Shown piece by piece: positions 2,288-15,759 of a DNA stretch of 64,000 nucleotides. The notes beneath the pieces were generated by a model. It saw nothing but the letters and a program-made list of their open reading frames with translations. It made no database searches and had not been told where the DNA came from. The DNA is from Tenacibaculum caenipelagi (lineage in GTDB: Bacteria; Bacteroidota; Bacteroidia; Flavobacteriales; Flavobacteriaceae). Position numbers and translations under genes: made by a program. The stretch is from positions 186,001-250,000 of the forward strand of contig NZ_SNYH01000003.1 of NCBI RefSeq assembly GCF_004363005.1, written 5' to 3'. Numbering within the stretch: position 1 is the stretch's first letter; every line of letters begins with the position of its first letter.

Positions 2288-3100
2288 TTATCTGTTTTCT
2301 ATTAACACAAATATATCTATTTGATTAATGTTATTATTTAAAACTTCTTTATTGCTAATTACTGAGTTGAATCCATTCTTTATACTATTAAACTTTAGCA
2401 TGTATTCTGATTCTACCTTATTAACCTGACTATCTTCTATGTTACTCGGTAATTCTTCCAATACTTCAAAAGTCCAATCACTCAACTTTGTTTCTCTTAA
2501 ATACAATCCAAAAGGACTATAACTTTTCGTTAAGTGATTCCACCATCTAAAAAAAGGTGCATTTCTTGTTTTACCTACATAACATTTGTCTGTTGCTTTC
2601 TCTGTGCATTTATAGATATAAATAGGACTTTCTTTAGTTATGTAGTATTCATCATCTGGAAACTCAACGTTATTCCACTTTTCCTTTTTGAAATTTTCAT
2701 AACATACATCGTCATCACTTGAACAAAACATAACATCTGACCCTAAAAGCCTTTCATCTATCCTTGGTTTTGATACATATTTATTCTCATGTACTTGTCC
2801 GCATTGTGAACATTTCCATTCTCCTTCTTCAATTAATATTTTTTCATATTCATAAAGGGGGAAAATAACTACATAGAAAAACTGTGCTTCATCTTTAGTT
2901 TCACGTTGATAAACTTTATCTTTAGGGAAAAACTGAGGATATTTACTCAATAATATTTCTTTAACCTCATTCTTATCTTTTGCTTCAATAAGTGGTTCCC
3001 TGATTATAGTAACAGAATCAAAAGGATTAGTCCACCCATATTTATCTTCTATTACAGCTAAAGATTTTACTACCCTTATAAATGCTTTAAAAAATCCCAT
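2288..3100 (-). CDS. GIY-YIG nuclease domain protein with N-terminal zinc ribbon
   Basis: The 270-residue protein has two recognisable parts. Around residues 95-130 is a cysteine cluster (CSQCGQVH, later CSSDDDVC) that looks like a zinc ribbon. At about residues 160-235 is a GIY-YIG domain: PIYIYKCTEKATDKCYVGKT supplies the YIY...CYVGKT core, followed by an arginine/histidine helix (RWWNHL) and a distal glutamate. GIY-YIG enzymes are metal-dependent DNA nucleases, in phages often homing or degradation nucleases. The gene starts three bases after the CAGTAG element at 3104. Confidence 0.8.
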   Translation of the reverse strand: MGFFKAFIRVVKSLAVIEDKYGWTNPFDSVTIIREPLIEAKDKNEVKEILLSKYPQFFPKDKVYQRETKDEAQFFYVVIFPLYEYEKILIEEGEWKCSQCGQVHENKYVSKPRIDERLLGSDVMFCSSDDDVCYENFKKEKWNNVEFPDDEYYITKESPIYIYKCTEKATDKCYVGKTRNAPFFRWWNHLTKSYSPFGLYLRETKLSDWTFEVLEELPSNIEDSQVNKVESEYMLKFNSIKNGFNSVISNKEVLNNNINQIDIFVLIENR

Positions 3101-3103
3101 TAT

Positions 3104-3202
3104 CTACTGTTTTTTAAAATAGTCTCTAATAATCGCCCCAACGAAAAAGTATAGGGCGATTATTATTGGTATACCTACCAATAATAAAATTGTTGCTTTC
3201 AT
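3104..3202 (-). CDS. Micro-protein, 32 residues, single transmembrane helix
   Basis: The frame starts at ATG 3202, sharing bases with the stop of the upstream lipoprotein gene (TAATG), and ends at the TAG of the CAGTAG element. The peptide is almost entirely hydrophobic (ATILLLVGIPIIIALYFFVG) with a short basic end (RDYFKKQ). Overlap on one side, the shared element on the other and the clean membrane helix support it as a real gene. Holin-like or superinfection-exclusion roles are possible but not shown. Confidence 0.55.
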   Translation of the reverse strand: MKATILLLVGIPIIIALYFFVGAIIRDYFKKQ

Positions 3203-3609
3203 TATTTTGACCTTGCTTCTAAAAGAGGTAAACCAGCTTCAGTAGGAACGTATATCTTATCTCCCTGACTATTTCTTATAGCATCAATTTTCAAGTACTC
3301 TAAATATTCTTTATTTCCTTTCATTGATTCTCCAATTATTCTATTTGCTTCAGCTACACCTTTTGCTCTCTCAATTTCTGCCTGCGCTTCTGCTTTAGCT
3401 ATTTTTACTTTAGCTTCTGCTTCTAACGTTGCGCTTTCATTTTTTGCTTTTGCTTCTTCAATCATTGCTTTTTTACTAGATTCAGCCTCTAATAAAATTG
3501 CTTTTCCGTTATTTTCAGAATCTAACAAATGTTGTTCTCTGCTAAATTCATAACAAGATGTAAATGTTAATGATAATACGATTAGCGTTAAAATGTTAAT
3601 TTTTTTCAT
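3202..3609 (-). CDS. Phage lipoprotein resembling the tail of SPFH/prohibitin proteins
   Basis: Translation probably starts at ATG 3609 (MKKINILTLIVLSLTFTSC); a longer frame from 3642 would add eleven residues before the signal. LTFTSC is a lipobox, so the product is an outer- or inner-membrane lipoprotein of 135 residues. The middle is an A/E/K-rich coiled coil and the end (YLKIDAIRNSQGDKIYVPT, EAGLPLLEA) closely resembles the C-terminal part of band-7/prohibitin (SPFH) proteins. The SPFH core domain itself is absent. It may interact with host SPFH complexes such as HflKC; this is inference. Confidence 0.65.
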   Translation of the reverse strand: MKKINILTLIVLSLTFTSCYEFSREQHLLDSENNGKAILLEAESSKKAMIEEAKAKNESATLEAEAKVKIAKAEAQAEIERAKGVAEANRIIGESMKGNKEYLEYLKIDAIRNSQGDKIYVPTEAGLPLLEARSK

Positions 3610-3666
3610 TTTGATTGTTTTTAAAGTTTTTAGCGATTTCATTATTAGTAGGTATCGCTATTTAAC

Positions 3667-4449
3667 CTACAGATTTAATGAATACGTTACCTTTTTTGGT
3701 TTTACGTAATTCGTGATTAATATTTCTTGTCTTCTGTTTTTTAAATTTCTTCTTTCCTCGAGATAGATTACATTCATTTTGTAATCGGAAGCAAAATCTA
3801 AAACAGGTTCAGTTGCAAATTCAGACATTGCAGAATTAATACCTGAAGTATCCATTATTTTAAAACAGTCCTCAGTATCATTAACAGTCCATTTATTTAC
3901 CTTGTAAGTATGTTCTGTACCTAAGTAAACAGGATCTAGATAACACAAACAATCACTTTTAGGTGTTACTTTGTCATTAAATGAAATTTTTCCTAATACC
4001 TCACGAAAATCAACGTTTGTAATTTTTGCGTTTTTAAGCATTTGAAAAGTTGGTTCAATACGATCAATTAAATTTCTTTTACAATGACCTATTCCAAGTC
4101 TTATAGTATCTCCTTTCCCCATGTAAGTAAAATTAGATAGCAATAAAAATCTAACTGCTTTTCTAACTGGATCTGTTTCTTCATTTTTTAGGTAGTACTT
4201 GATCAAACTTTCCGAAACTGGCAATAATTCCAATTGCTTTTTTAATTCTTCTTTTTGATCAAGCATTACCAAGTACAAATTTGTTACGTCTGAATCAGCA
4301 TCATTAAGTATTGAAAACTTAGGAGTAGGCAAATAAAAATAACTACCACCTGCGCCAAAGAATAACTCAATTCTCATTCTATGAGGTAAAAAATTCGCAT
4401 GAAGCTGTTTTGCTAATTTGCGTTTATTTCCTAGTCTTGTTAATACCAC
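3667..4449 (-). CDS. DNA adenine methyltransferase, D12 class
   Basis: The 260-residue protein starts at GTG 4449 (MVLTRLGNKRKLAKQL). The S-adenosylmethionine-binding motif is ELFFGAGGSYFYL (about residue 28) and NDADSDVTNLY follows as in D12-class (Dam-like) N6-adenine methyltransferases. The catalytic motif, normally DPPY, reads YLDPVYLGT here, so the second proline is replaced by valine. The gene ends in CTGTAG, the dispersed element of this region. Such enzymes protect phage DNA from restriction; whether the DPVY form is active cannot be judged from the sequence. Confidence 0.75.
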   Translation of the reverse strand: MVLTRLGNKRKLAKQLHANFLPHRMRIELFFGAGGSYFYLPTPKFSILNDADSDVTNLYLVMLDQKEELKKQLELLPVSESLIKYYLKNEETDPVRKAVRFLLLSNFTYMGKGDTIRLGIGHCKRNLIDRIEPTFQMLKNAKITNVDFREVLGKISFNDKVTPKSDCLCYLDPVYLGTEHTYKVNKWTVNDTEDCFKIMDTSGINSAMSEFATEPVLDFASDYKMNVIYLEERRNLKNRRQEILITNYVKPKKVTYSLNL

Positions 4450-4566
4450 TTTATCTACTGTTTTAAAAAAATCGGTACAAAAAGCATTGGCGCGAAACTT
4501 CCCGATAAATGTTTACTTATATTGCTTTCCACCCATCCGAAAGGGACCTTGTGCGCAATTTCTTTT

Positions 4567-4582
4567 GTAGCTCAATAGCTAC
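4567..4582. repeat. 16-nt hairpin GTAGCTCAATAGCTAC, orphan copy
   Basis: The inverted repeat GTAGCT-CAAT-AGCTAC is identical, loop included, to the copy at 6787-6802. It stands directly downstream of the DUF3850 stop, and 27 nt further there is no start codon, unlike the other two copies. The stretch 4450-4566 after it holds no convincing gene, only two frames of 7 and 10 codons. Confidence 0.7.
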
Positions 4583-4584
4583 AA

Positions 4585-4836
4585 TTACTTTATAATTTCT
4601 ATACTCATTGCTACATAGTCTTTCTCTAGACCATAATTACCTCCTTGTAGTATGTGAGTAACTTTTACGTTACATTCTTTACCTGTGTATTGTTCTGTAT
4701 ATGGACACCACTCTTCTAAACACAAAGTATCGCCATCTTTGTAATCTCTATCGTTTTTGCGTAACTCTACTTTTTTAAATCCATTCTCAACTTGATAAAA
4801 ATGAATTGGTAATATTTTAAGATTGTGTATTTTCAT
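4585..4836 (-). CDS. DUF3850 (PUA/ASCH-like) protein
   Basis: The 83-residue product fits DUF3850: MKIHNLKILPIHFYQVENG followed by KKVELRKNDRDYKDGDTLCL, then YTGKECNVKVTHILQGGNYGL and a final DYVAMSIEII. The family is a small PUA/ASCH-like barrel, frequent in phages, with presumed RNA-binding or nucleotide-sensing role. The start at 4836 is preceded by the extended junction element (CAGTAG, hairpin, then ACGCAAAAACGCAAA-like A-rich leader), the same arrangement as in front of the 6427-6771 gene. Confidence 0.85.
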   Translation of the reverse strand: MKIHNLKILPIHFYQVENGFKKVELRKNDRDYKDGDTLCLEEWCPYTEQYTGKECNVKVTHILQGGNYGLEKDYVAMSIEIIK

Positions 4837-4851
4837 CTTTTGCGTTTTTGC

Positions 4852-4867
4852 GTAGCTAGATTGCTAC
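4852..4867. repeat. 16-nt hairpin in extended junction element
   Basis: GTAGC-TAGATT-GCTAC forms a 5-bp stem overlapping the CAGTAG element (4864-4869). The leader between it and ATG 4836 contains CAAAAACGCAAA on the minus strand, the same string as in the leader at 6772-6786. The distance from TAG to ATG is 27 nt in both leaders. Confidence 0.7.
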
Positions 4868-5013
4868 TGTATTTCTGTTTTTATCCTTTCTCTCAATGAT
4901 GATGCTATATGCTTTTCATCAACGGTTTCATAAACCATTCTCAAAAGAGACTTTAATTGTCCTTCTTTATAGGCTTGATTTGTCGTTTTTTCAATTATGC
5001 TTTCTAATCCCAT
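4864..5013 (-). CDS. Small phage protein, 49 residues
   Basis: This gene is missed by usual length cut-offs. It starts at ATG 5013, three bases after CTGTAG (5017-5022), and ends in the CAG-TAG of the next element. The product (MGLESIIEKTTNQAYKEGQ, then LRMVYETVDEKHIASSL) is a helical acidic/basic protein. The sequence resembles ordinary coding sequence and both junctions carry the dispersed element, which is why I consider it real. Function unknown. Confidence 0.65.
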   Translation of the reverse strand: MGLESIIEKTTNQAYKEGQLKSLLRMVYETVDEKHIASSLRERIKTEIQ

Positions 5014-5016
5014 TAT

Positions 5017-5157
5017 CTACAGTTTTATAATCTTAGCTAACTTCTGAACCTCCTCATTTTCATCTTTCCATTTTAAATTCCATCCAAGAGGAAAATTCTT
5101 GTTTAAAAATGCTCTAGCTTTTTTTAGCTTCATTTGTTTTTCTGTTAATTTTTTCAT
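5017..5157 (-). CDS. Small phage protein, 46 residues
   Basis: The frame from ATG 5157 (MKKLTEKQMKLKKARAFLNK) ends with CTG-TAG at 5017. An in-frame ATG at 5187 would add MSRSARIFKD; it lies next to a perfect 14-bp palindrome GAGCAGATCTGCTC (5172-5185). The peptide is strongly basic at the start and has an aromatic middle (FPLGWNLKWKDE). Function unknown; the element at both ends supports it. Confidence 0.6.
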   Translation of the reverse strand: MKKLTEKQMKLKKARAFLNKNFPLGWNLKWKDENEEVQKLAKIIKL

Positions 5158-5237
5158 GTCTTTAAAAATGCGAGCAGATCTGCTCATGTTTTTTGTGCGC
5201 TTATAATTTGTACTGGATCTAGTCCATATTTTAAAAG

Positions 5238-5504
5238 CTACTGTTTAAAGTTCATTGTTCCCATCATAAAATCAACATAGGAGTCTATCTGATCTTGATC
5301 GTTATGATATTGATGTTCCTGAGCCATTTCAATTGCTGTTCTCATTTCCCATTCATTGGTTGGATATGGAGAATAAAAATTGTGTACCCATTCTCCTTCC
5401 TTAGCTAATTCACAAGCGACGTCTTCTTTTGAAGCTTTTTCAAAATCAGAATCAGTTAAATGTGTATTCTCTATTAAATATGCTTTTGCCTCATCTGTTG
5501 TCAT
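5238..5504 (-). CDS. Hypothetical phage protein
   Basis: The likely start is ATG 5504 (MTTDEAKAYLIENTHLTDSD), five bases after the CAGTAG element at 5510; a frame extended to 5543 would overlap the upstream gene and ignore the element. The 88-residue acidic product contains EWVHNFYSPYPTNEWEMRTA and a tyrosine/aspartate-rich end. It ends AAA-CAG-TAG. No family recognised. Confidence 0.65.
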   Translation of the reverse strand: MTTDEAKAYLIENTHLTDSDFEKASKEDVACELAKEGEWVHNFYSPYPTNEWEMRTAIEMAQEHQYHNDQDQIDSYVDFMMGTMNFKQ

Positions 5505-5515
5505 GATTTCTACTG

Positions 5516-5776
5516 TTAATTTATTCGTTGAAAAACATGCCATACAGATTGTTCTATAAAAGCAGTTCCTAAATATTTCCTATTGAAATTATCAATTGGA
5601 TTACCTGTGCTAAAAACCTCTAATTCAATTTGTTCAGTTTTCGCTTCTGGATCAACTAAAGCCCAAATAAAAATTTCGTAAAACTGGCTATCAACTTTTA
5701 AAATTTCATAGCCTTTTGGTAATTCTAAAAATTGAAAGTCTTTTATATGTAGCTTGTATTTATATATTCTTTTCAC
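5516..5776 (-). CDS. Hypothetical phage protein
   Basis: An 86-residue protein starting at GTG 5776 (MKRIYKYKLHIKDFQFLELP). The pattern of beta strands (YEILKVDSQFYEIFIWALVD and EQIELEVFSTGNPI), then YLGTAFIEQSVWHVFQ, matches a type of short phage protein seen in Bacteroidetes phages (inference by look only). The start follows CAGTAG by five bases (AAAAC). Confidence 0.6.
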   Translation of the reverse strand: MKRIYKYKLHIKDFQFLELPKGYEILKVDSQFYEIFIWALVDPEAKTEQIELEVFSTGNPIDNFNRKYLGTAFIEQSVWHVFQRIN

Positions 5777-5788
5777 GTTTTCTACTGT

Positions 5789-5977
5789 TTAATTAATATA
5801 TCCTGTTTCGAATTCATTTTGCAACAATGAACACACACGTCTTAATTCGTTCTCAATTGCTTCATGTTTAATCACATCTAAAGTCATATTTTGTTCTCTA
5901 CAAAAAATTACTCTTTGATGATGGAAATCTTCACGTTTACGAATTTCCTTGATTACTTTTATTGCTTTACCGCTCAT
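5789..5977 (-). CDS. Hypothetical phage protein, helical
   Basis: A 62-residue protein from ATG 5977 (MSGKAIKVIKEIRKREDFHH); GTG 5983 is possible but overlaps the CTGTAG element, which precedes ATG 5977 by five bases. The product is basic at the start and acidic/helical at the end (HEAIENELRRVCSLLQNEFE). Function unknown. Confidence 0.55.
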   Translation of the reverse strand: MSGKAIKVIKEIRKREDFHHQRVIFCREQNMTLDVIKHEAIENELRRVCSLLQNEFETGYIN

Positions 5978-5989
5978 TTTCACTACAGA

Positions 5990-6187
5990 TTAAATGTTAT
6001 CTTCTCCTAACACAAGACAATCTTCAAAAGCGAATGGTTCGCCTTCATGTCCTTCAGAAAATTTCACATTTCTAACTTCCATTTCTTCTAATGGCTTGAA
6101 TTGAAATTCTCCATCAGTGTCTTCAATTAAAACTTCCATATGCTCTGGATAGCTTTCTAATTTCATTTTTAATTCTTTTACTGTCAT
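5990..6187 (-). CDS. Hypothetical phage protein
   Basis: The 65-residue acidic protein begins MTVKELKMKLESYPEHMEVL and continues IEDTDGEFQFKPLEEM. The opening (TVKEL...L..YP....V) is a common pattern in small phage proteins of unknown function. Start codon 6187 follows CAGTAG (6193) by five bases, AAATC, the same spacer as at 5504. Confidence 0.65.
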   Translation of the reverse strand: MTVKELKMKLESYPEHMEVLIEDTDGEFQFKPLEEMEVRNVKFSEGHEGEPFAFEDCLVLGEDNI

Positions 6188-6201
6188 GATTTCTACTGTT
6201 T

Positions 6202-6420
6202 TTAACCTCTTGTTATTTCTCCTGATTTCTGTTTGAAATCATCTGGTATTACGGTAGAAAAGTTATATCCATCACCGCATTCAATATCTTCAGAATAATC
6301 ACCAATTAATATACATGGGTAACTTCTTATTACTCTGTTAATCCTACCTTCGTATTCATTCCCAAAAAAGTCAAGTGCTTTACTCAATTCACTTTTACTA
6401 TTCAATAATATTTTTTCCAT
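6202..6420 (-). CDS. Hypothetical phage protein
   Basis: A 72-residue protein (MEKILLNSKSELSKALDFFG) without recognised family. It is acidic, with a middle of alternating hydrophobic residues (RVIRSYPCILIGDYSEDI). The start follows a TAGTAG variant of the dispersed element by three bases, and the TAA stop is followed by AAACAGTAG for the next gene. Confidence 0.6.
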   Translation of the reverse strand: MEKILLNSKSELSKALDFFGNEYEGRINRVIRSYPCILIGDYSEDIECGDGYNFSTVIPDDFKQKSGEITRG

Positions 6421-6426
6421 TATCTA

Positions 6427-6771
6427 CTATTTAATTAGTCTTTGTTTTTTTACATATTCAAGTCTTTCTTGAAATGTAGTTTTAGGAAGAATGACAGATT
6501 CATCTTTGCTTGTTTCAGTTAGTAAATGGTATTCTTCATTTATATATTCACTAAACATTCCATCACAAACACCTTCACTTCCTGCGTCCTCAAACATTTT
6601 TAATTCCCTAGCAATGTCTTGGCAAGATGTATGAGCTTTCCAAGTATAAATTGTTCCTTCGTACACATTTGTTTGTGATTCGTAAACCTCTCCTTTTGGG
6701 ATTACACCCCAACAAAAATTGCATCGGTGCTCTTTTCTAGCTTTAGGCTTTGAACTGTTTAATGTTTCCAT
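6427..6771 (-). CDS. Zinc-finger-like phage protein
   Basis: The likely start is ATG 6771 (METLNSSKPKARKEHRCNFC), giving 114 residues. The pattern HRCNFCWGVIPKGEVY...WKAHTSC is a C-x2-C...H-x2-C zinc site with a glycine turn, as in small phage proteins related to HNH or treble-clef folds. No catalytic residues are evident. The leader has the extended junction element: CTGTAG at 6799, the hairpin 6787-6802 and an A-rich stretch, 27 nt in all before ATG. Confidence 0.65.
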   Translation of the reverse strand: METLNSSKPKARKEHRCNFCWGVIPKGEVYESQTNVYEGTIYTWKAHTSCQDIARELKMFEDAGSEGVCDGMFSEYINEEYHLLTETSKDESVILPKTTFQERLEYVKKQRLIK

Positions 6772-6786
6772 AGTTTGCGTTTTTGT

Positions 6787-6802
6787 GTAGCTCAATAGCT
6801 AC
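6787..6802. repeat. 16-nt hairpin in extended junction element
   Basis: GTAGCT-CAAT-AGCTAC, identical to 4567-4582. It overlaps CTGTAG (6799-6804), so the stop codon of the 6799-6933 gene lies in its stem. If it folds in RNA, it would sit between the stop of one gene and the start of the next. Confidence 0.75.
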
Positions 6803-6933
6803 AGTTTAAATTCATTAATTTTCTCTCTCAGTTCTTCAAATGTTTCTTTTGTTAAATATTTTTTTGTACTATTTATCACAATCATCACTGGATAGGTCTT
6901 ACCGTATTTTGTTATATGTTTTAGATATATCAT
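6799..6933 (-). CDS. Small phage protein, 44 residues
   Basis: ATG 6933 begins MIYLKHITKYGKTYPVMIVI and the frame ends AAA-CTG-TAG at 6799. The peptide has two strand-like segments and a charged helix (TKETFEELREKINEF), so it looks like a folded mini-protein. It starts four bases after the GTGTAG end of the methyltransferase gene. Function unknown. Confidence 0.65.
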   Translation of the reverse strand: MIYLKHITKYGKTYPVMIVINSTKKYLTKETFEELREKINEFKL

Positions 6934-6937
6934 TTAA

Positions 6938-7432
6938 CTACACTTTTAATGAACAGTACATTTTGCCGAGACCGTTCTTTTCGGCATTTTTTAAAGCTTG
7001 AATAGCTTTAGATCCTATTGCAAATAATGTGGTACCATTTGCAGGTTGATTCCCTAACTCACCACTTGGTTTGATAAAGCTTATTCTTGATTTAGTGAAT
7101 AAGTGAGCGTCTGAATTATCAGCAATTAATTGCCACCATGAAGCAGAAGTTCTATCTGGAAATAAAGCAATTCCATTTCCGTGATGGATAAATTTATTTA
7201 TCCAAGCTGTTTTTGTTTTTCTATCTCCGAAAGGTGGATTCATCCAAACAAAACCAATCCAACCGGTATTTAAACCATCATTTTTATTAGTGAAAAATCT
7301 TGTTGCAGGAACATTACAAAAACTTCTATCTTCTGGACTCGCTACATCTAAATCAAATTTGACATCTAGCGCATCAAAAATAAATTTTGCCGTGTACCAC
7401 TCGTTAGATTTTCCTTGTGCTTCGTGTGACAT
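6938..7432 (-). CDS. Phage-type DNA N-6-adenine methyltransferase (Dam)
   Basis: The 164-residue protein is a short phage adenine methyltransferase. It has NEWYTAKFIFDALDVKFDLD near the start, the catalytic NPPF (FVWMNPPFGDRKT, about residue 64), and a conserved C-terminal part (FPDRTSASWWQ, LFTKSRISFIKP, NGTTLFAIG). These enzymes methylate adenine in phage DNA, usually against host restriction. It is the second methyltransferase of this prophage, besides the D12 enzyme at 3667. Start 7432 follows CAGTAG by six bases. Confidence 0.9.
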   Translation of the reverse strand: MSHEAQGKSNEWYTAKFIFDALDVKFDLDVASPEDRSFCNVPATRFFTNKNDGLNTGWIGFVWMNPPFGDRKTKTAWINKFIHHGNGIALFPDRTSASWWQLIADNSDAHLFTKSRISFIKPSGELGNQPANGTTLFAIGSKAIQALKNAEKNGLGKMYCSLKV

Positions 7433-7444
7433 CTTTAACTACTG

Positions 7445-7543
7445 TTAATTTGTTTCACTGTTAAGCCATTCTATACATTCTGAACACAAGTACACAGAAT
7501 TATTATTATCTCCACAAGCAGCACAATTATTTCCTTTATTCAT
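7445..7543 (-). CDS. Micro-protein with two C-x2-C pairs
   Basis: This 32-residue frame (MNKGNNCAACGDNNNSVYLC then SECIEWLNSETN) has the pattern C-x2-C-x9-C-x2-C, which is enough for a zinc knuckle. It starts one base after CAGTAG (7545) and its TAA stop is followed directly by CAGTAG for the methyltransferase gene. Strict cysteine spacing and both junction elements support translation. Confidence 0.65.
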   Translation of the reverse strand: MNKGNNCAACGDNNNSVYLCSECIEWLNSETN

Positions 7544-7551
7544 ACTACTGT

Positions 7552-7824
7552 TTAATTGTATAGTACACCCATTCCTGAACAAACAGGACAACCACCACCT
7601 TGGCAGTTATAACATGGGTAACTTTCTTGTTGTTTTACTTCTTTACATAATTCATGTCCGAAAAGGCGCATAGCATCCCTTTGGTTAAATTCATCTGCGT
7701 TTAATCTGCGTGCGCAATTTTCGCAGTAATGTTTTCTGCTTCCGTAGTTGTACCAATTTGCTTTTTTTCCTGTGGTGCAACTACTCATGTTGCATGTTCC
7801 GTTTAATTCGCCTTTATCACTCAT
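7552..7824 (-). CDS. Cysteine-rich zinc-binding phage protein
   Basis: A 90-residue protein with two cysteine clusters. Residues about 30-40 hold HYCENCARRLN; the C-terminus holds YPCYNCQGGGCPVCSGMG, a DnaJ-like CxxCxGxG-type zinc site. The end resembles the zinc-binding tails of phage regulators. The start at 7824 follows CTGTAG (7826) by one base. Function unknown. Confidence 0.65.
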   Translation of the reverse strand: MSDKGELNGTCNMSSCTTGKKANWYNYGSRKHYCENCARRLNADEFNQRDAMRLFGHELCKEVKQQESYPCYNCQGGGCPVCSGMGVLYN

Positions 7825-7837
7825 ACTACAGTTTTTT

Positions 7838-7857
7838 AAATGCCCCGAAGGGCATTT
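7838..7857. repeat. Perfect hairpin with UUCG loop
   Basis: AAATGCCC and GGGCATTT form a perfect 8-bp stem around a four-base loop that reads TTCG on the minus strand, a C(UUCG)G tetraloop, one of the most stable RNA loops. It stands 21 bases downstream of the GG-leader peptide gene. No run of T follows on the minus strand, so it may protect or process mRNA or act as a weak terminator. Confidence 0.6.
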
Positions 7858-7878
7858 TGTTAACTTCTAGTTTTGATA

Positions 7879-8106
7879 TTAGCACATGCTTTGAGCTTCT
7901 ATATTTCCACTTAAATATGTTTTATAATACACACCACCACTCCACTCTTCGTGATAATACCCTCCATCATCCGACTTGACAGCCCAATGAACCCCTTGAA
8001 ATACTCCTGAACACACAGTAGAACCCGATTCATATCTCCCTCCTTTAACTTGTTGTTGTTCAGAAATACTTAATGGTTTTCCTAATTCTAAAATTGATTT
8101 TTTCAT
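7879..8106 (-). CDS. Double-glycine-leader bacteriocin-like peptide precursor
   Basis: The 75-residue product has a leader of the ComC/bacteriocin type: MKKSILELGKPLSISEQQQ followed by VKGG. This is the usual form of leaders cut after GG by C39-peptidase ABC transporters in Bacteroidetes (conserved L, E-Q-x-x-V/I, GG). The core of 52 residues is rich in G, Y, S and W, with two cysteines (STVCSG and the C-terminal SMC). No transporter or modification enzyme is nearby. It lies in the phage accessory array but lacks the junction element before its start and has its own 113-bp upstream region. Confidence 0.8.
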   Translation of the reverse strand: MKKSILELGKPLSISEQQQVKGGRYESGSTVCSGVFQGVHWAVKSDDGGYYHEEWSGGVYYKTYLSGNIEAQSMC

Positions 8107-8141
8107 GATTAAATGATTTTAAAAATTTGCCTACTCTATTA

Positions 8142-8173
8142 GCTTTTCGGCTTCCGCTTTTCGGTTGAAAAGC
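8142..8173. repeat. Short direct repeats and hairpin upstream of the GG peptide
   Basis: GCTTTTCGG occurs at 8142-8150 and 8156-8164, 14 bp apart. The second copy pairs with GAAAAGC (8167-8173) around the loop GGTT. They lie in the 113-bp gap in front of the GG-peptide gene, the largest gap in this part of the operon. A regulatory role is possible. Confidence 0.5.
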
Positions 8174-8219
8174 TTGTGAAGTATTATCTTTGGAGTCCTA
8201 CGTCGAAAGTTTTGGTGCT

Positions 8220-8411
8220 TCACCTAGCTTTTGTTTTAGCTCTCGCTTCGGCGGGAGCTTGTTTTATATACTGTATTTGATTCTTTAATAATTCTAAATA
8301 TTTTGCTCTTGCTTTATGAATTACTATTACCATTTGAGATTTGGTTAACCCTAATTCAACCATTTCATCAATCCATCTTTGAGCCATTTCTTCTTCTTTT
8401 TGGTTTGCCAT
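8220..8411 (-). CDS. Hypothetical phage protein, helical
   Basis: ATG 8411 (MANQKEEEMAQRWIDEMVEL) follows the CAGTAG element by two bases and gives 63 residues; the in-frame ATG 8432 would overlap the previous gene. The protein is one long charged helix region ending in an alanine/lysine-rich tail (APAEARAKTKAR). Function unknown. Confidence 0.6.
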   Translation of the reverse strand: MANQKEEEMAQRWIDEMVELGLTKSQMVIVIHKARAKYLELLKNQIQYIKQAPAEARAKTKAR

Positions 8412-8413
8412 AA

Positions 8414-8737
8414 CTACTGTTTTGGTGAACACTTAATTGCATACACTAAATCAAAAGACGCTAACTCAAGAGCATGAATATGAACCTCTGGTGCATCACC
8501 AATACCGCCTGAATTATCTGGATAAGGTATATGAATGAAAAAATCATTTTCATCTAAATCCATATTTGGAAGAGTAAATACATATCCAGTATCAGTATTC
8601 TCTTTATCTTTCCATTGAATTTCTACTTTTCCGCCTGCATCTACTCGACCAATTATTTTTTTATTCAATAATTCAAAATTGTCATATTCAAGTGCATTGG
8701 TTCTTTGGTGAATTAATTCTTGTATTGTTGTTAACAT
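8414..8737 (-). CDS. Hypothetical phage protein
   Basis: The 107-residue acidic protein (MLTTIQELIHQRTNALEYDN) has a middle of beta strands (IIGRVDAGGKVEIQWKD) and a late HIHALELASFDLVYAIK. No family recognised. It ends AAA-CAG-TAG, the junction element of the next gene. Its own start has only a distant TAGTAG copy (8773), 35 bases upstream. Confidence 0.65.
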   Translation of the reverse strand: MLTTIQELIHQRTNALEYDNFELLNKKIIGRVDAGGKVEIQWKDKENTDTGYVFTLPNMDLDENDFFIHIPYPDNSGGIGDAPEVHIHALELASFDLVYAIKCSPKQ

Positions 8738-8775
8738 GGTTATTTTATTTAAAGTTGTTAATATTAGTTTTACTA

Positions 8776-8856
8776 CTATTTAAAAACACAACGAGTTACT
8801 GATACTCCGTTTATTGCTCTTGAGTTCTGAGGCGTACGTAATATTCGCCCTTTCAC
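8776..8856 (-). CDS. Possible 26-residue frame ending in a TAGTAG junction
   Basis: A frame from GTG 8856 (MKGRILRTPQNSRAINGVSV) ends AAA-TAG-TAG at 8776, like other junctions here. The same stretch is framed by the 10-bp inverted repeat 8787-8796/8855-8864, so it could as well be structured RNA. Neither reading is secure. Confidence 0.3.
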   Translation of the reverse strand: MKGRILRTPQNSRAINGVSVTRCVFK

Positions 8857-8864
8857 TCGTTGTG
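8787..8864. repeat. 10-bp perfect inverted repeat, 58-nt spacer
   Basis: CACAACGAGT (8787-8796) and ACTCGTTGTG (8855-8864) are perfect complements. On the minus strand the distal arm is followed by five T. The stem could close a long structured element between the genes at 8737 and 8874. Confidence 0.55.
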
Positions 8865-8873
8865 CTTGGTTTT

Positions 8874-9056
8874 TTAATTGGTTATGCTTCTTAAGACCAT
8901 TGCTTTCCCTTCTTTTATCCAGACTTTTCCTTCATTTATTTGAATTTTCTCTAGATTCCTTGCGTCTAATAATGCTTTTTCTCCCTGTTCTTTTAGATAT
9001 GCTTGAGTGTATTCCTTAGTAGATTTACCTCCATCAAATTTTTTCTTTCTTGCCAT
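8874..9056 (-). CDS. Hypothetical basic phage protein
   Basis: A 60-residue basic protein (MARKKKFDGGKSTKEYTQAY) with a helical middle (LKEQGEKALLDARNLEKIQI). The start overlaps the end of the upstream frame (9034-9174) by 23 bases in another reading frame. Function unknown. Confidence 0.55.
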   Translation of the reverse strand: MARKKKFDGGKSTKEYTQAYLKEQGEKALLDARNLEKIQINEGKVWIKEGKAMVLRSITN

Positions 9057-9174
9057 AACTTTTATGTTTTTCTAAACCTATTAATTGCTTTAGTTCTGAA
9101 TTTATGTAGCCTATCCATTGATCAACACTACTAGTTTTTCTTTTTGGAAATACTACTGTTTGTATTCGTATCAT
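9034..9174 (-). CDS. Small phage protein, 46 residues
   Basis: The frame starts at ATG 9174 (MIRIQTVVFPKRKTSSVDQW) and contains IGYINSELKQLIGLEKHK, which reads like genuine coding sequence. It overlaps the next gene by 23 bases. A CAGTAG copy (9153-9158) lies inside its first codons but no start codon follows it there. Function unknown. Confidence 0.45.
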   Translation of the reverse strand: MIRIQTVVFPKRKTSSVDQWIGYINSELKQLIGLEKHKSYGKKEKI

Positions 9175-9227
9175 AATTACCTAGTATTGGTTTGTAATAA
9201 TTTGAAATAGTTTTTTATAATATGATT

Positions 9228-13276: not shown

Positions 13277-14131
13277 CTATGCTTTTGTTTCTTGATTAAA
13301 TACTATTTGATTTTCAGCTTCTGTTATCTCATCAGAAAAAAGCTTTAATTGCTCTTCGTCTAATGAGTTTTTAATTTCTTGAAGTTCTTCGATTGTTTCT
13401 GCTTTTTGAATGAAACTTGAAATGCGCTTGTCCTCTTCATTTACCACCTCTACATCTATTGTTTGAGAATCTAAATCTTGAATATCCCCATCAGAGATTT
13501 CTGATCCAGTAATTGTACTATATAACCATGCCCTTGCTTTTCTTGTAGCTTTACCAATTATAGCATCAGTTCCCATGAATTTATTAACCTTAATAGGTAT
13601 TTCAATTTGTCTTTCTCTTTTTGTAGAATTATTTATTGACCAAAAAACATTCATAACAATAGCTGCACTTGTATTCTCTTTGTTTACCCTTGGTAAAGAG
13701 GGGACTATCTCATAAGACAACCCTTTGTAGTTTGATAATAAATAACCTAACCCTTGTTTTGTAGGATATGTGTTTCCAGCAATAATGTTGAACTGATTTC
13801 CATAAGGCTGTAGACCCATTAAAACTGCTTCTATTAAACAATTTTTTACTATCGCTTCTGAGTACCCTCCATTATTGTCTTTATCTGTTTTGAAACCAAG
13901 TACATTTCCTTGAAGCTGCATGATAGGTTTCATGTATTCAGGTGTAAGTAATTGTTTAAGTTCTGCAGTTGCATTAGCTATCATATAAGCTCTTTCAAAA
14001 CCTTTAAGATTTTCTTGCCCTAATACTGAAACAACACTATTATTTAGTTGTTTTGCAATTTTAAGTTGTGTGTTTTTTTCCATTTCCGATTGTTTTATGT
14101 CCGTTGAAGGGTTTGAAGTTATCGCCCCCAT
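13277..14131 (-). CDS. recT: RecT family single-strand annealing protein
   Basis: The 284-residue protein has the RecT core: AVLMGLQPYGNQFNIIAGN, then YPTKQGLGYLLSNYKG, and KVNKFMGTDAIIGKATRKARAWLY. The family binds single-stranded DNA and anneals it during phage recombination. The C-terminal 70 residues are acidic and less conserved (DVEVVNEEDKR). The partner exonuclease follows at once. A 9-bp inverted repeat (14085-14093/14132-14140) brackets the start codon. Confidence 0.9.
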   Translation of the reverse strand: MGAITSNPSTDIKQSEMEKNTQLKIAKQLNNSVVSVLGQENLKGFERAYMIANATAELKQLLTPEYMKPIMQLQGNVLGFKTDKDNNGGYSEAIVKNCLIEAVLMGLQPYGNQFNIIAGNTYPTKQGLGYLLSNYKGLSYEIVPSLPRVNKENTSAAIVMNVFWSINNSTKRERQIEIPIKVNKFMGTDAIIGKATRKARAWLYSTITGSEISDGDIQDLDSQTIDVEVVNEEDKRISSFIQKAETIEELQEIKNSLDEEQLKLFSDEITEAENQIVFNQETKA

Positions 14132-14453: not shown

Positions 14454-14522
14454 TTGGTTGGTTATACCTTCCTCCTACAGATTCCCCCAAAGCTTTCAGA
14501 GGAAGGCAATCAACTAACCAAA
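14454..14522. repeat. Long imperfect stem-loop between early genes
   Basis: CCTTCCTC (14467-14474) and GAGGAAGG (14499-14506) are perfect arms, and the match extends outward with small bulges (TTGGTT... on one side and ...AACCAA on the other). The loop carries TCTGTAG on the minus strand, the same hexamer as the dispersed junction element. It overlaps the end of the 14510-14752 gene. Confidence 0.55.
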
Positions 14523-15365: not shown

Positions 15366-15683
15366 TTAAAGGTTTTGGAATTCTAAGTTGTTAGTTATTT
15401 GATTGATAAACTCATCTTCTAAACTCACCTCTCCATTGTGTGAATTAATAACAACATTGATACTTGAAACACAATCAAATTTGAAATCTCCGCCTCTCCA
15501 TTCAACTAAAACCTCCCCACTTATTACTACATAAAAGTTTTGCGTTTCAAAATTTATTGAGAAATCAACTGTAGAATAAACATCTCCATCATACTCTGGA
15601 TAATCTGTTTTAATTGGAAACAAAGCATTCAACACCTCTTGCTTTTTTGTTAATGTTATACTATCTAATACAATTGTTTCCAT
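15366..15683 (-). CDS. Hypothetical protein, first gene of the early operon
   Basis: A 105-residue acidic protein (METIVLDSITLTKKQEVLNA) with many strands (TVDFSINFETQNFYVVISGE) and no recognised family. As the first gene behind the repressor-controlled promoter it is the position where many phages carry an anti-repressor or Cro-like gene, but no DNA-binding motif is visible. Its leader is a (CAA)20 repeat in mRNA. Confidence 0.65.
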   Translation of the reverse strand: METIVLDSITLTKKQEVLNALFPIKTDYPEYDGDVYSTVDFSINFETQNFYVVISGEVLVEWRGGDFKFDCVSSINVVINSHNGEVSLEDEFINQITNNLEFQNL

Positions 15684-15696
15684 ATTTTGTATATCT

Positions 15697-15756
<60 letters not shown>

Positions 15757-15759
15757 ATA

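Follow-up and report, generated by a model that had tools for sequence, protein, structure and literature searches.

A directional sequence junction between gene cassettes that probably move singly in flavobacterial prophages and chromosomal arrays

To our knowledge, most joints in mosaic phage genomes carry no visible signal. In REP/RAYT systems, GTAG stands at the base of a palindrome and is accompanied by a RAYT transposase. Closer to the subject of this work are three systems of repeated intergenic sequences. Integrons are known in phages as attC clusters (Qi et al. 2023, PMC9892861), and in that account Polaribacter phage P12002L carries attC sites, of which one of two tested was active with IntI1. 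The PeSLs of T4-type phages (Arbiol et al. 2010; Comeau et al. 2014, as cited in PMC4503421) are described there as composites of promoter and stem-loop. Cluster K mycobacteriophages have the start-associated sequence (SAS) GGGATAGGAGCCC, of which, in the account of PMC3203893, M. smegmatis holds no exact copy. Here we describe a short element, AAAC(A/T)GTAG, that recurs in one direction between the small accessory genes of a prophage of Tenacibaculum caenipelagi and in other Flavobacteriaceae loci. It was studied in a 64,000-nucleotide stretch, hereafter the window (positions 186001-250000 of contig NZ_SNYH01000003.1, C3, of the 3.27-Mb genome GCF_004363005.1, G000), and homology between cassettes was found to switch at the element. 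No description of it appeared among the papers listed in searches of the open-access PMC literature.

The left 17 kb of the window are part of a prophage. The same sequence is present in a 42,335-bp IMG/VR record, by whose coordinates the prophage would start near C3:160 kb; locus L035 is the window sequence itself (0 differences in 7500) and was hence excluded from counts. An earlier note on this DNA had proposed that a short sequence recurs at the gene junctions of the accessory region, and counts on each strand of positions 3001-9200 against 1000 dinucleotide shuffles agreed with it. The exact pattern AAACWGTAG was found 11 times on the minus strand and never on the plus strand (shuffle mean 0.14, maximum 2), the relaxed pattern WAWYWGTAG 18 times and once (mean 0.96, maximum 5) and the 6-mer YWGTAG, near the pattern that the note had put forward as a check, 21 and 6 times (5.1, maximum 14). 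The replication and recombination genes at 9.2-15.7 kb, where the note had seen no copy at gene starts, hold no exact and one relaxed copy on the minus strand (AATCTGTAG, 14475-14483). The element is real and non-random. The 158 matches counted genome-wide over both strands, vs 60 for the reversed pattern, were set aside as evidence, since codon usage can cause such an excess.

IMG/VR was scanned with the patterns, loci being kept only if they held several copies in the same direction. The matches listed were mostly single copies, and one-directional clusters were found in several contigs: V398 and V165 (two arrays of record 2890587071_000002), V399 (3300037589_000222), V397 (2547132518_000001), V366 (3300037245_001837) and V411 (3300039204_000031). 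The T. caenipelagi genome contains a second prophage-like element, P6, with 11 copies at C6:120.8-123.8 kb, and, flanked by tRNA genes, a five-copy array at C1:304.3-305.2 kb. Arrays were also found on contigs C24, C37, C38 and C42 of Bizionia sp. 1139 and at two loci of Bizionia MAG-66, namely M60 and M2, the latter with an endolysin match nearby. The M60 and B42 arrays were classed as chromosomal by their layout.

The 40 nt to the left and the 40 nt to the right of each of 201 sites from 15 regions were then compared. Homologous pairs of sites matched on the left only in 22 cases, on the right only in 42 and on both sides in none, and a stricter cut (191 sites) gave 20, 42 and 0. Identity ran at most 3 nt past GTAG in 20 of the 22 left-only pairs, and in each of the 42 right-only pairs it reached no further than 3 nt ahead of the core. 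The left-only pairs comprised 8 within one array, 7 that join two arrays of the same genome and 7 whose members come from separate genomes or records; the corresponding figures for right-only pairs were 18, 13 and 11. Grouped by matching flank, 33 sites formed 15 left families and 43 sites formed 17 right families, in each of which every member's 40-nt partner differs. When the test was moved upstream by 60, 80 or 120 nt, the left-only/right-only/both counts became 0/1/21, 0/0/20 and 0/2/18, so that homology is continuous inside cassettes; moved downstream by the same distances they were 18/0/18, 12/0/16 and 2/0/14, these counts arising because many right matches of the Bizionia arrays are a short terminator-like stretch. 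Seven control motifs of like make-up gave 0-1 left-only, 0-11 right-only and 0-5 both-sided pairs, and we read the 11 right-only pairs as the hairpin of the Bizionia terminator family. The element on the opposite strand (29 sites) gave 0/2/0. Whole cassettes matched in 17 cases at 69-100% identity, among them a 632-bp cassette whose copies in Bizionia sp. 1139 and Bizionia MAG-66 are 99.8% identical. Identity switches at the junction, single cassettes are the usual unit shared, and the junction is independent of gene orientation.

The bases of the core allowed the switch to be placed. Among left-homologous pairs no difference was seen at core positions 0-3 (0/22), the W base differed in 2/22 (both V165 vs V399) and the first base past GTAG in 12/22; in right-homologous pairs the W base differed in 18/42 and the preceding C in 14/42. 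From this pattern of linkage, cassette identity changes within GTAG.

Reordering was also seen between the two prophages of T. caenipelagi. Three cassettes, all on the minus strand of the window, are common to the window prophage and P6 at 99-100% identity. The 272-bp cassette (5514..5785), which holds an 86-aa GTG gene, occurs once in the window and three times, dispersed, in P6, with different neighbours throughout: the element at its lower-coordinate end (TAACAGTAG, 5510..5518, minus) has a left flank common to three P6 sites, each then continuing into another cassette, and that at its higher-coordinate end (AAACAGTAG, 5782..5790, minus) a right flank common to three P6 sites whose left flanks differ. 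A 285-bp DUF3850 cassette (4583..4867) is 99.6% identical to G000:C6:123263-122978, and a 124-bp cassette (4459..4582), inside which no minus-strand ORF (open reading frame) of at least 30 aa is listed, is 100% identical to G000:C6:123387-123263; the outer neighbours of these two differ between the prophages. At their minus-strand elements, AAACAGTAG (4455..4463) has the left flank of P6 123263 and a different right flank, the variant TAATTGTAG (4579..4587) combines the left flank of P6 122978 with the right flank of P6 123387, and the variant ATACAGTAG (4864..4872) has the right flank of P6 123263. Four early ORFs are common to both prophages in the same order (40-69% identical, blastp matches listed), and no other ORF pair apart from DUF3850 was linked by blastp; this comparison took ATG starts, which is why the 86-aa GTG gene is absent from it. 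Taken alone, the repeated 272-bp copies could be an assembly artefact; the same cassette pattern was also found between independent records, V165 and V399 as well as Bizionia sp. 1139 and MAG-66. With its flank switch and reordered cassettes, the element is therefore best described as a DNA junction at which single cassettes moved. This strongly supports one of the functions suggested in the earlier note, a module for gene exchange, with changes falling between elements.

That note had also suggested a translation-initiation signal placed 1-6 nt before the start codon. A start (ATG or GTG of an ORF of at least 30 aa) does lie within 16 nt of 12 of the 18 relaxed window copies, at 1-6 nt, compared with 13% of random positions. 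The distance does not hold for AAATAGTAG at 8773..8781 (minus), which is 35 nt from the ATG of 8414-8737, nor for AAACAGTAG at 9153..9161 (minus), which lies inside the short ORF 9034-9174 and may be the upstream edge of the array or a chance match. A start was found within 16 nt of 54/81 elements in phage arrays vs 11/64 in arrays classed as chromosomal. In eight phage arrays, 53 of the 57 ORFs of at least 60 aa follow the element's direction (4 opposite), compared with 12 of 36 in five arrays classed as chromosomal (24 opposite). Among 105 loosely defined phage sites, 65 had a start, 47 of them with A at -3; this matches the A-3 effect of F. johnsoniae, where A at -3 is described as a positive determinant (PMC6847099). 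The most frequent spacers before these 65 starts were T (9, five regions), ATA (8, five), TT (7, five) and AAATC (6, four), ATA and AAATC being those that had been noticed to recur; AAAAC (4) came solely from copies of one cassette. The gene upstream ended in the TAG of GTAG at 36/66 phage sites (upstream frame of at least 40 codons) and in a TAA that coincides with the first bases of the core or immediately precedes them at 28/66, and the remark that selection acts on nucleic acid was right. Owing to this stop/start anatomy, the junction allows both neighbouring genes to be expressed, and TAG is restored by an exchange inside GTAG. Pairing with 16S rRNA was rejected, the longest Watson-Crick complement to that of G000 being 6 nt for five element variants. 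The start distances in the window and the A at -3 would fit an element that is a start-associated signal only, its exchanges incidental, yet this is very unlikely given that the core recurs in the chromosomal arrays with few starts nearby, that homology switches in the core and that the 16S complement is so short. The evidence instead supports a start-signal role as a secondary property, in phages only.

The element works like an integron array, and the resemblance to the arrays described in PMC9892861 extends to single cassettes, unidirectional junctions, occurrence in phages and chromosomes, and methyltransferase cargo. A subset of chromosomal cassettes reads GTTAAAT, some junctions being GTAGTTAAAT, compatible with G/TTRRRY. 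By inspection, however, the phage junctions, in which GTAG is followed by ATA, AAATC, T or TT, hold no R' box GTTRRRY, and unlike an integron site the element contains the stop of the upstream gene and adjoins the downstream start. Nor do the flanks show a general attC-like fold: over seven arrays, the flanking 100 nt gave median z values of -1.76 to +0.33, whereas the controls, four attC-like palindromes of L337 and seven weaker repeats of L343, gave -4.4 to -5.7 and -1.5 to -4.5, respectively. Foldable subsets (z < -2) made up 0.46 of B38 right flanks, 0.33 of V398 left flanks and 0.22 of PW left flanks. Integron-integrase models matched phage integrases only far under the cut-off, and none scored above it. 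A canonical integron array with attC sites and IntI is thus scarcely plausible; by its phage junction sequences and its lack of a general fold, the element is not attC and does not qualify as an integron site.

Like the T4 PeSLs as summarised in PMC4503421, the element is a repeated intergenic sequence at which adjacent accessory genes are shuffled between phages. It differs in being a 9-bp core without a general hairpin, present in several phage types and in chromosomes; hairpins occur at a minority of sites. In the window they follow four copies (6799, 4864, 4579 and 3667; by eye) as GTAGC-loop-GCTAC or GTAGGT...ACCTAC. Several cassettes of both prophages (window 4864 and 6799; L334 12301, 12978 and 13263) are preceded by another composite leader, in which GTAGC-loop-GCTAC(G/A)CAAAAACGCAA, or a sequence close to it, is followed by ATG. 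The earlier note's parallel with the cluster K SAS held for position and for little else. Both sequences, as far as the SAS is described in PMC3203893, are short, asymmetric and mostly in one direction, abut the starts of varied gene families and have inverted repeats in a subset; position right before starts was found in our phage arrays only, the sequences are unrelated, and the element forms host-chromosome arrays (B24, B37, B38, C1 and M60). In structure the element is therefore no T4 PeSL, and its sequence and its distribution in hosts set it apart from the cluster K SAS. A hairpin such as that of REP/RAYT systems is missing at most element sites.

We consider it probable that WWAACWGTAG is a directional DNA junction between single-gene cassettes, which are moved one at a time by recombination within it. 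On this model the switch point would lie inside GTAG and each cassette would carry one junction, so that cassettes could be inserted, lost, duplicated and reordered singly, both in the accessory regions of phages and, on Flavobacteriaceae chromosomes, in array-like loci. Such a junction would spare expression in phages: the TAG in GTAG, or a TAA just before it, would stop the upstream gene, and the next start would usually follow 1-6 nt on, mostly with A at -3. The cassettes are probably moved by a dedicated sequence-specific enzyme, because homologous recombination should move blocks, yet junctions between cassette pairs recur only twice. This enzyme would most likely act in trans and belong to the tyrosine or serine recombinases. 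A fuller version, which we put forward tentatively, is a new mobility system in which a dedicated recombinase recognises the directional AAAC(A/T)GTAG core, exchanges strands in GTAG and moves single genes as circles; such a system would link phages, prophages and chromosomal arrays through a junction that keeps the upstream stop and the downstream start.

Several observations weigh against this interpretation. Two left-only pairs share 14 nt (V399 9074/6770) and 18 nt (M60 2391/2977) beyond GTAG, so the junction itself recurs there, and the DUF3850 and 124-bp cassettes adjoin in both prophages, though in swapped order. Pairs within the same array account for 8 of the 22 left-only and 18 of the 42 right-only cases, many right-only pairs of the Bizionia arrays share just the short terminator-like stretch, and the flanks of V366 and V411 matched no other region. 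As to the core, the invariance of GTAG is imposed by the search pattern, so that no variation in it is visible, and the W base fails to follow the left flank in both V165/V399 pairs. For a site of a tyrosine or serine recombinase the core is also small, and it shows no clear symmetry of arms. Together with its A-rich flank, it could be used for short-homology recombination. Finally, no recombinase gene was common to the six carriers compared (PW, P6, V397, V398, V399 and M2; blastp at E 1e-5 on ORFs of 40 aa or more, with V366 and V411 left out).

Some of these points would suit short-homology recombination at a conserved expression junction, in which the element would persist because phage genes depend on its stop/start coupling, general or phage recombination would use its 9-12 identical bases, and only gene-sparing exchanges would survive. 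A similar proposal exists for phage boundary sequences, and the T4 PeSLs offer a comparison. The stop/start anatomy in phages, the closeness of 54 of the 81 phage elements to a start (16 nt or less), the missing common recombinase and the two junctions that recur beyond the core all accord with it. We nevertheless regard it as rather unlikely, since homologous exchange should often move blocks, whereas the shared units are single cassettes with two short exceptions, and since non-adjacent duplicates lie inside one array (P6). Moreover, the element is kept in array-like chromosomal loci with opposite ORFs and beside terminator-like hairpins, and it flanks a cassette without an evident ORF.

Three candidates for the enzyme of the proposed cassette system were considered and rejected. 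A tyrosine recombinase (L292:6854-8221) lies 490 bp from the array on Bizionia sp. 1139 C24. Its relative in MAG-66 (95.7%, 439 aa) is 9 kb from the array and beside other palindromes, and the 465 nt ahead of the C24 array match, at 91.8% identity, the phage gene region that stands before the array of MAG-66; the adjacency on C24 is therefore probably accidental. No close relative of this recombinase was found in IMG/VR, and its family (about 450 aa) was found in 99/397 Flavobacteriaceae genomes at E 0.001. Long palindromic attC-like repeats were seen downstream of some family members (L337, L332 and L343, from G040, G193 and G236; G402:C2 near 94 kb) and may belong to a separate integron-like system. 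A serine resolvase (L352:3659-4306, Pfam), which lies close to the V165 array, was dropped because a signature search of the collected loci found it in no record but that one. The third candidate, the GIY-YIG-like gene at window 2288-3100, has no relative in the other carriers compared, and its GIY-YIG match is weak (E 0.0018, under the Pfam cut-off).

This gene is preceded by the last element of the window array, AAACAGTAG at 3104..3112, which like all those below is on the minus strand. The TAG of AATCTGTAG at 3667..3675 is the stop of a D12-type methyltransferase ORF (3667-4449), and that of the variant AAAGTGTAG at 6938..6946 the stop of a Dam-like ORF (6938-7432). Further copies are AAACTGTAG at 5017..5025, AAACAGTAG at 5238..5246, AATCTGTAG at 5983..5991, AAACAGTAG at 6193..6201, AAATAGTAG at 6424..6432, AAACTGTAG at 6799..6807 (followed by the hairpin GTAGCTATTGAGCTAC), TAACAGTAG at 7439..7447, AAACAGTAG at 7545..7553, AAACTGTAG at 7826..7834 and AAACAGTAG at 8414..8422. 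A doubtful variant, ATAGAGTAG at 8131..8139, falls within an Rfam match to the DUF805b RNA (RF02914, 8128-8160, minus; 49.5 bits vs a gathering threshold of 35.6), upstream of ORF 7879-8106, the product of which resembles a double-glycine leader peptide by eye. The earlier description was right in its essentials, the copies at 4579-4587, 6938-6946 and 8131-8139 being variants.

Elsewhere in the prophage, an integrase (L031:14352-15542) was identified with Pfam, and matches to a DnaC-like loader, an exonuclease and NinG were found. The product of window 13277-14131 appeared RecT-like by eye and matched neither Pfam nor PHROGs, so an annealing protein is not claimed. A long run of CAA triplets (about 15695-15757, minus) lies directly upstream of ORF 15366-15683.

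The cargo and surroundings of the other arrays were sampled. Two cassette proteins are rare elsewhere, in 5/397 and 1/397 genomes of the family; Polaribacter phage Leef_1 and Cellulophaga phi19:1, retrieved through a common ASCH-type cassette protein, showed no clear array in 12-kb stretches. Of the ORFs in arrays classed as chromosomal, ten were sampled, and none matched a PHROG at E 0.001; one carries a secretion sorting domain. The C24 array comes after a phage gene remnant, and the arrays classed as chromosomal may therefore descend from prophages. An IS110-family transposase ORF (PF02371; L254 5154-5822, minus) lies inside a Bizionia cassette array. P6, V398 and M2 share genes, such as families of 602 and 588 aa (G398 L256, G402:C2 L298, G000:C6 L333/L334), and eight proteins of this set had few PHROG matches when scanned; these three may be a virus type unlike tailed phages, in which case the element may cross virus types.

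The element bears on how phages assemble and swap many small accessory genes. As this joint is short, conserved, directional and placed to about four bases, the process is testable. If a dedicated enzyme exists, flavobacterial genomes would hold a sequence marker from which cassette genes could be excised in silico, and the junction would belong to a second cassette-capture system beside integrons, one that is used by viruses.

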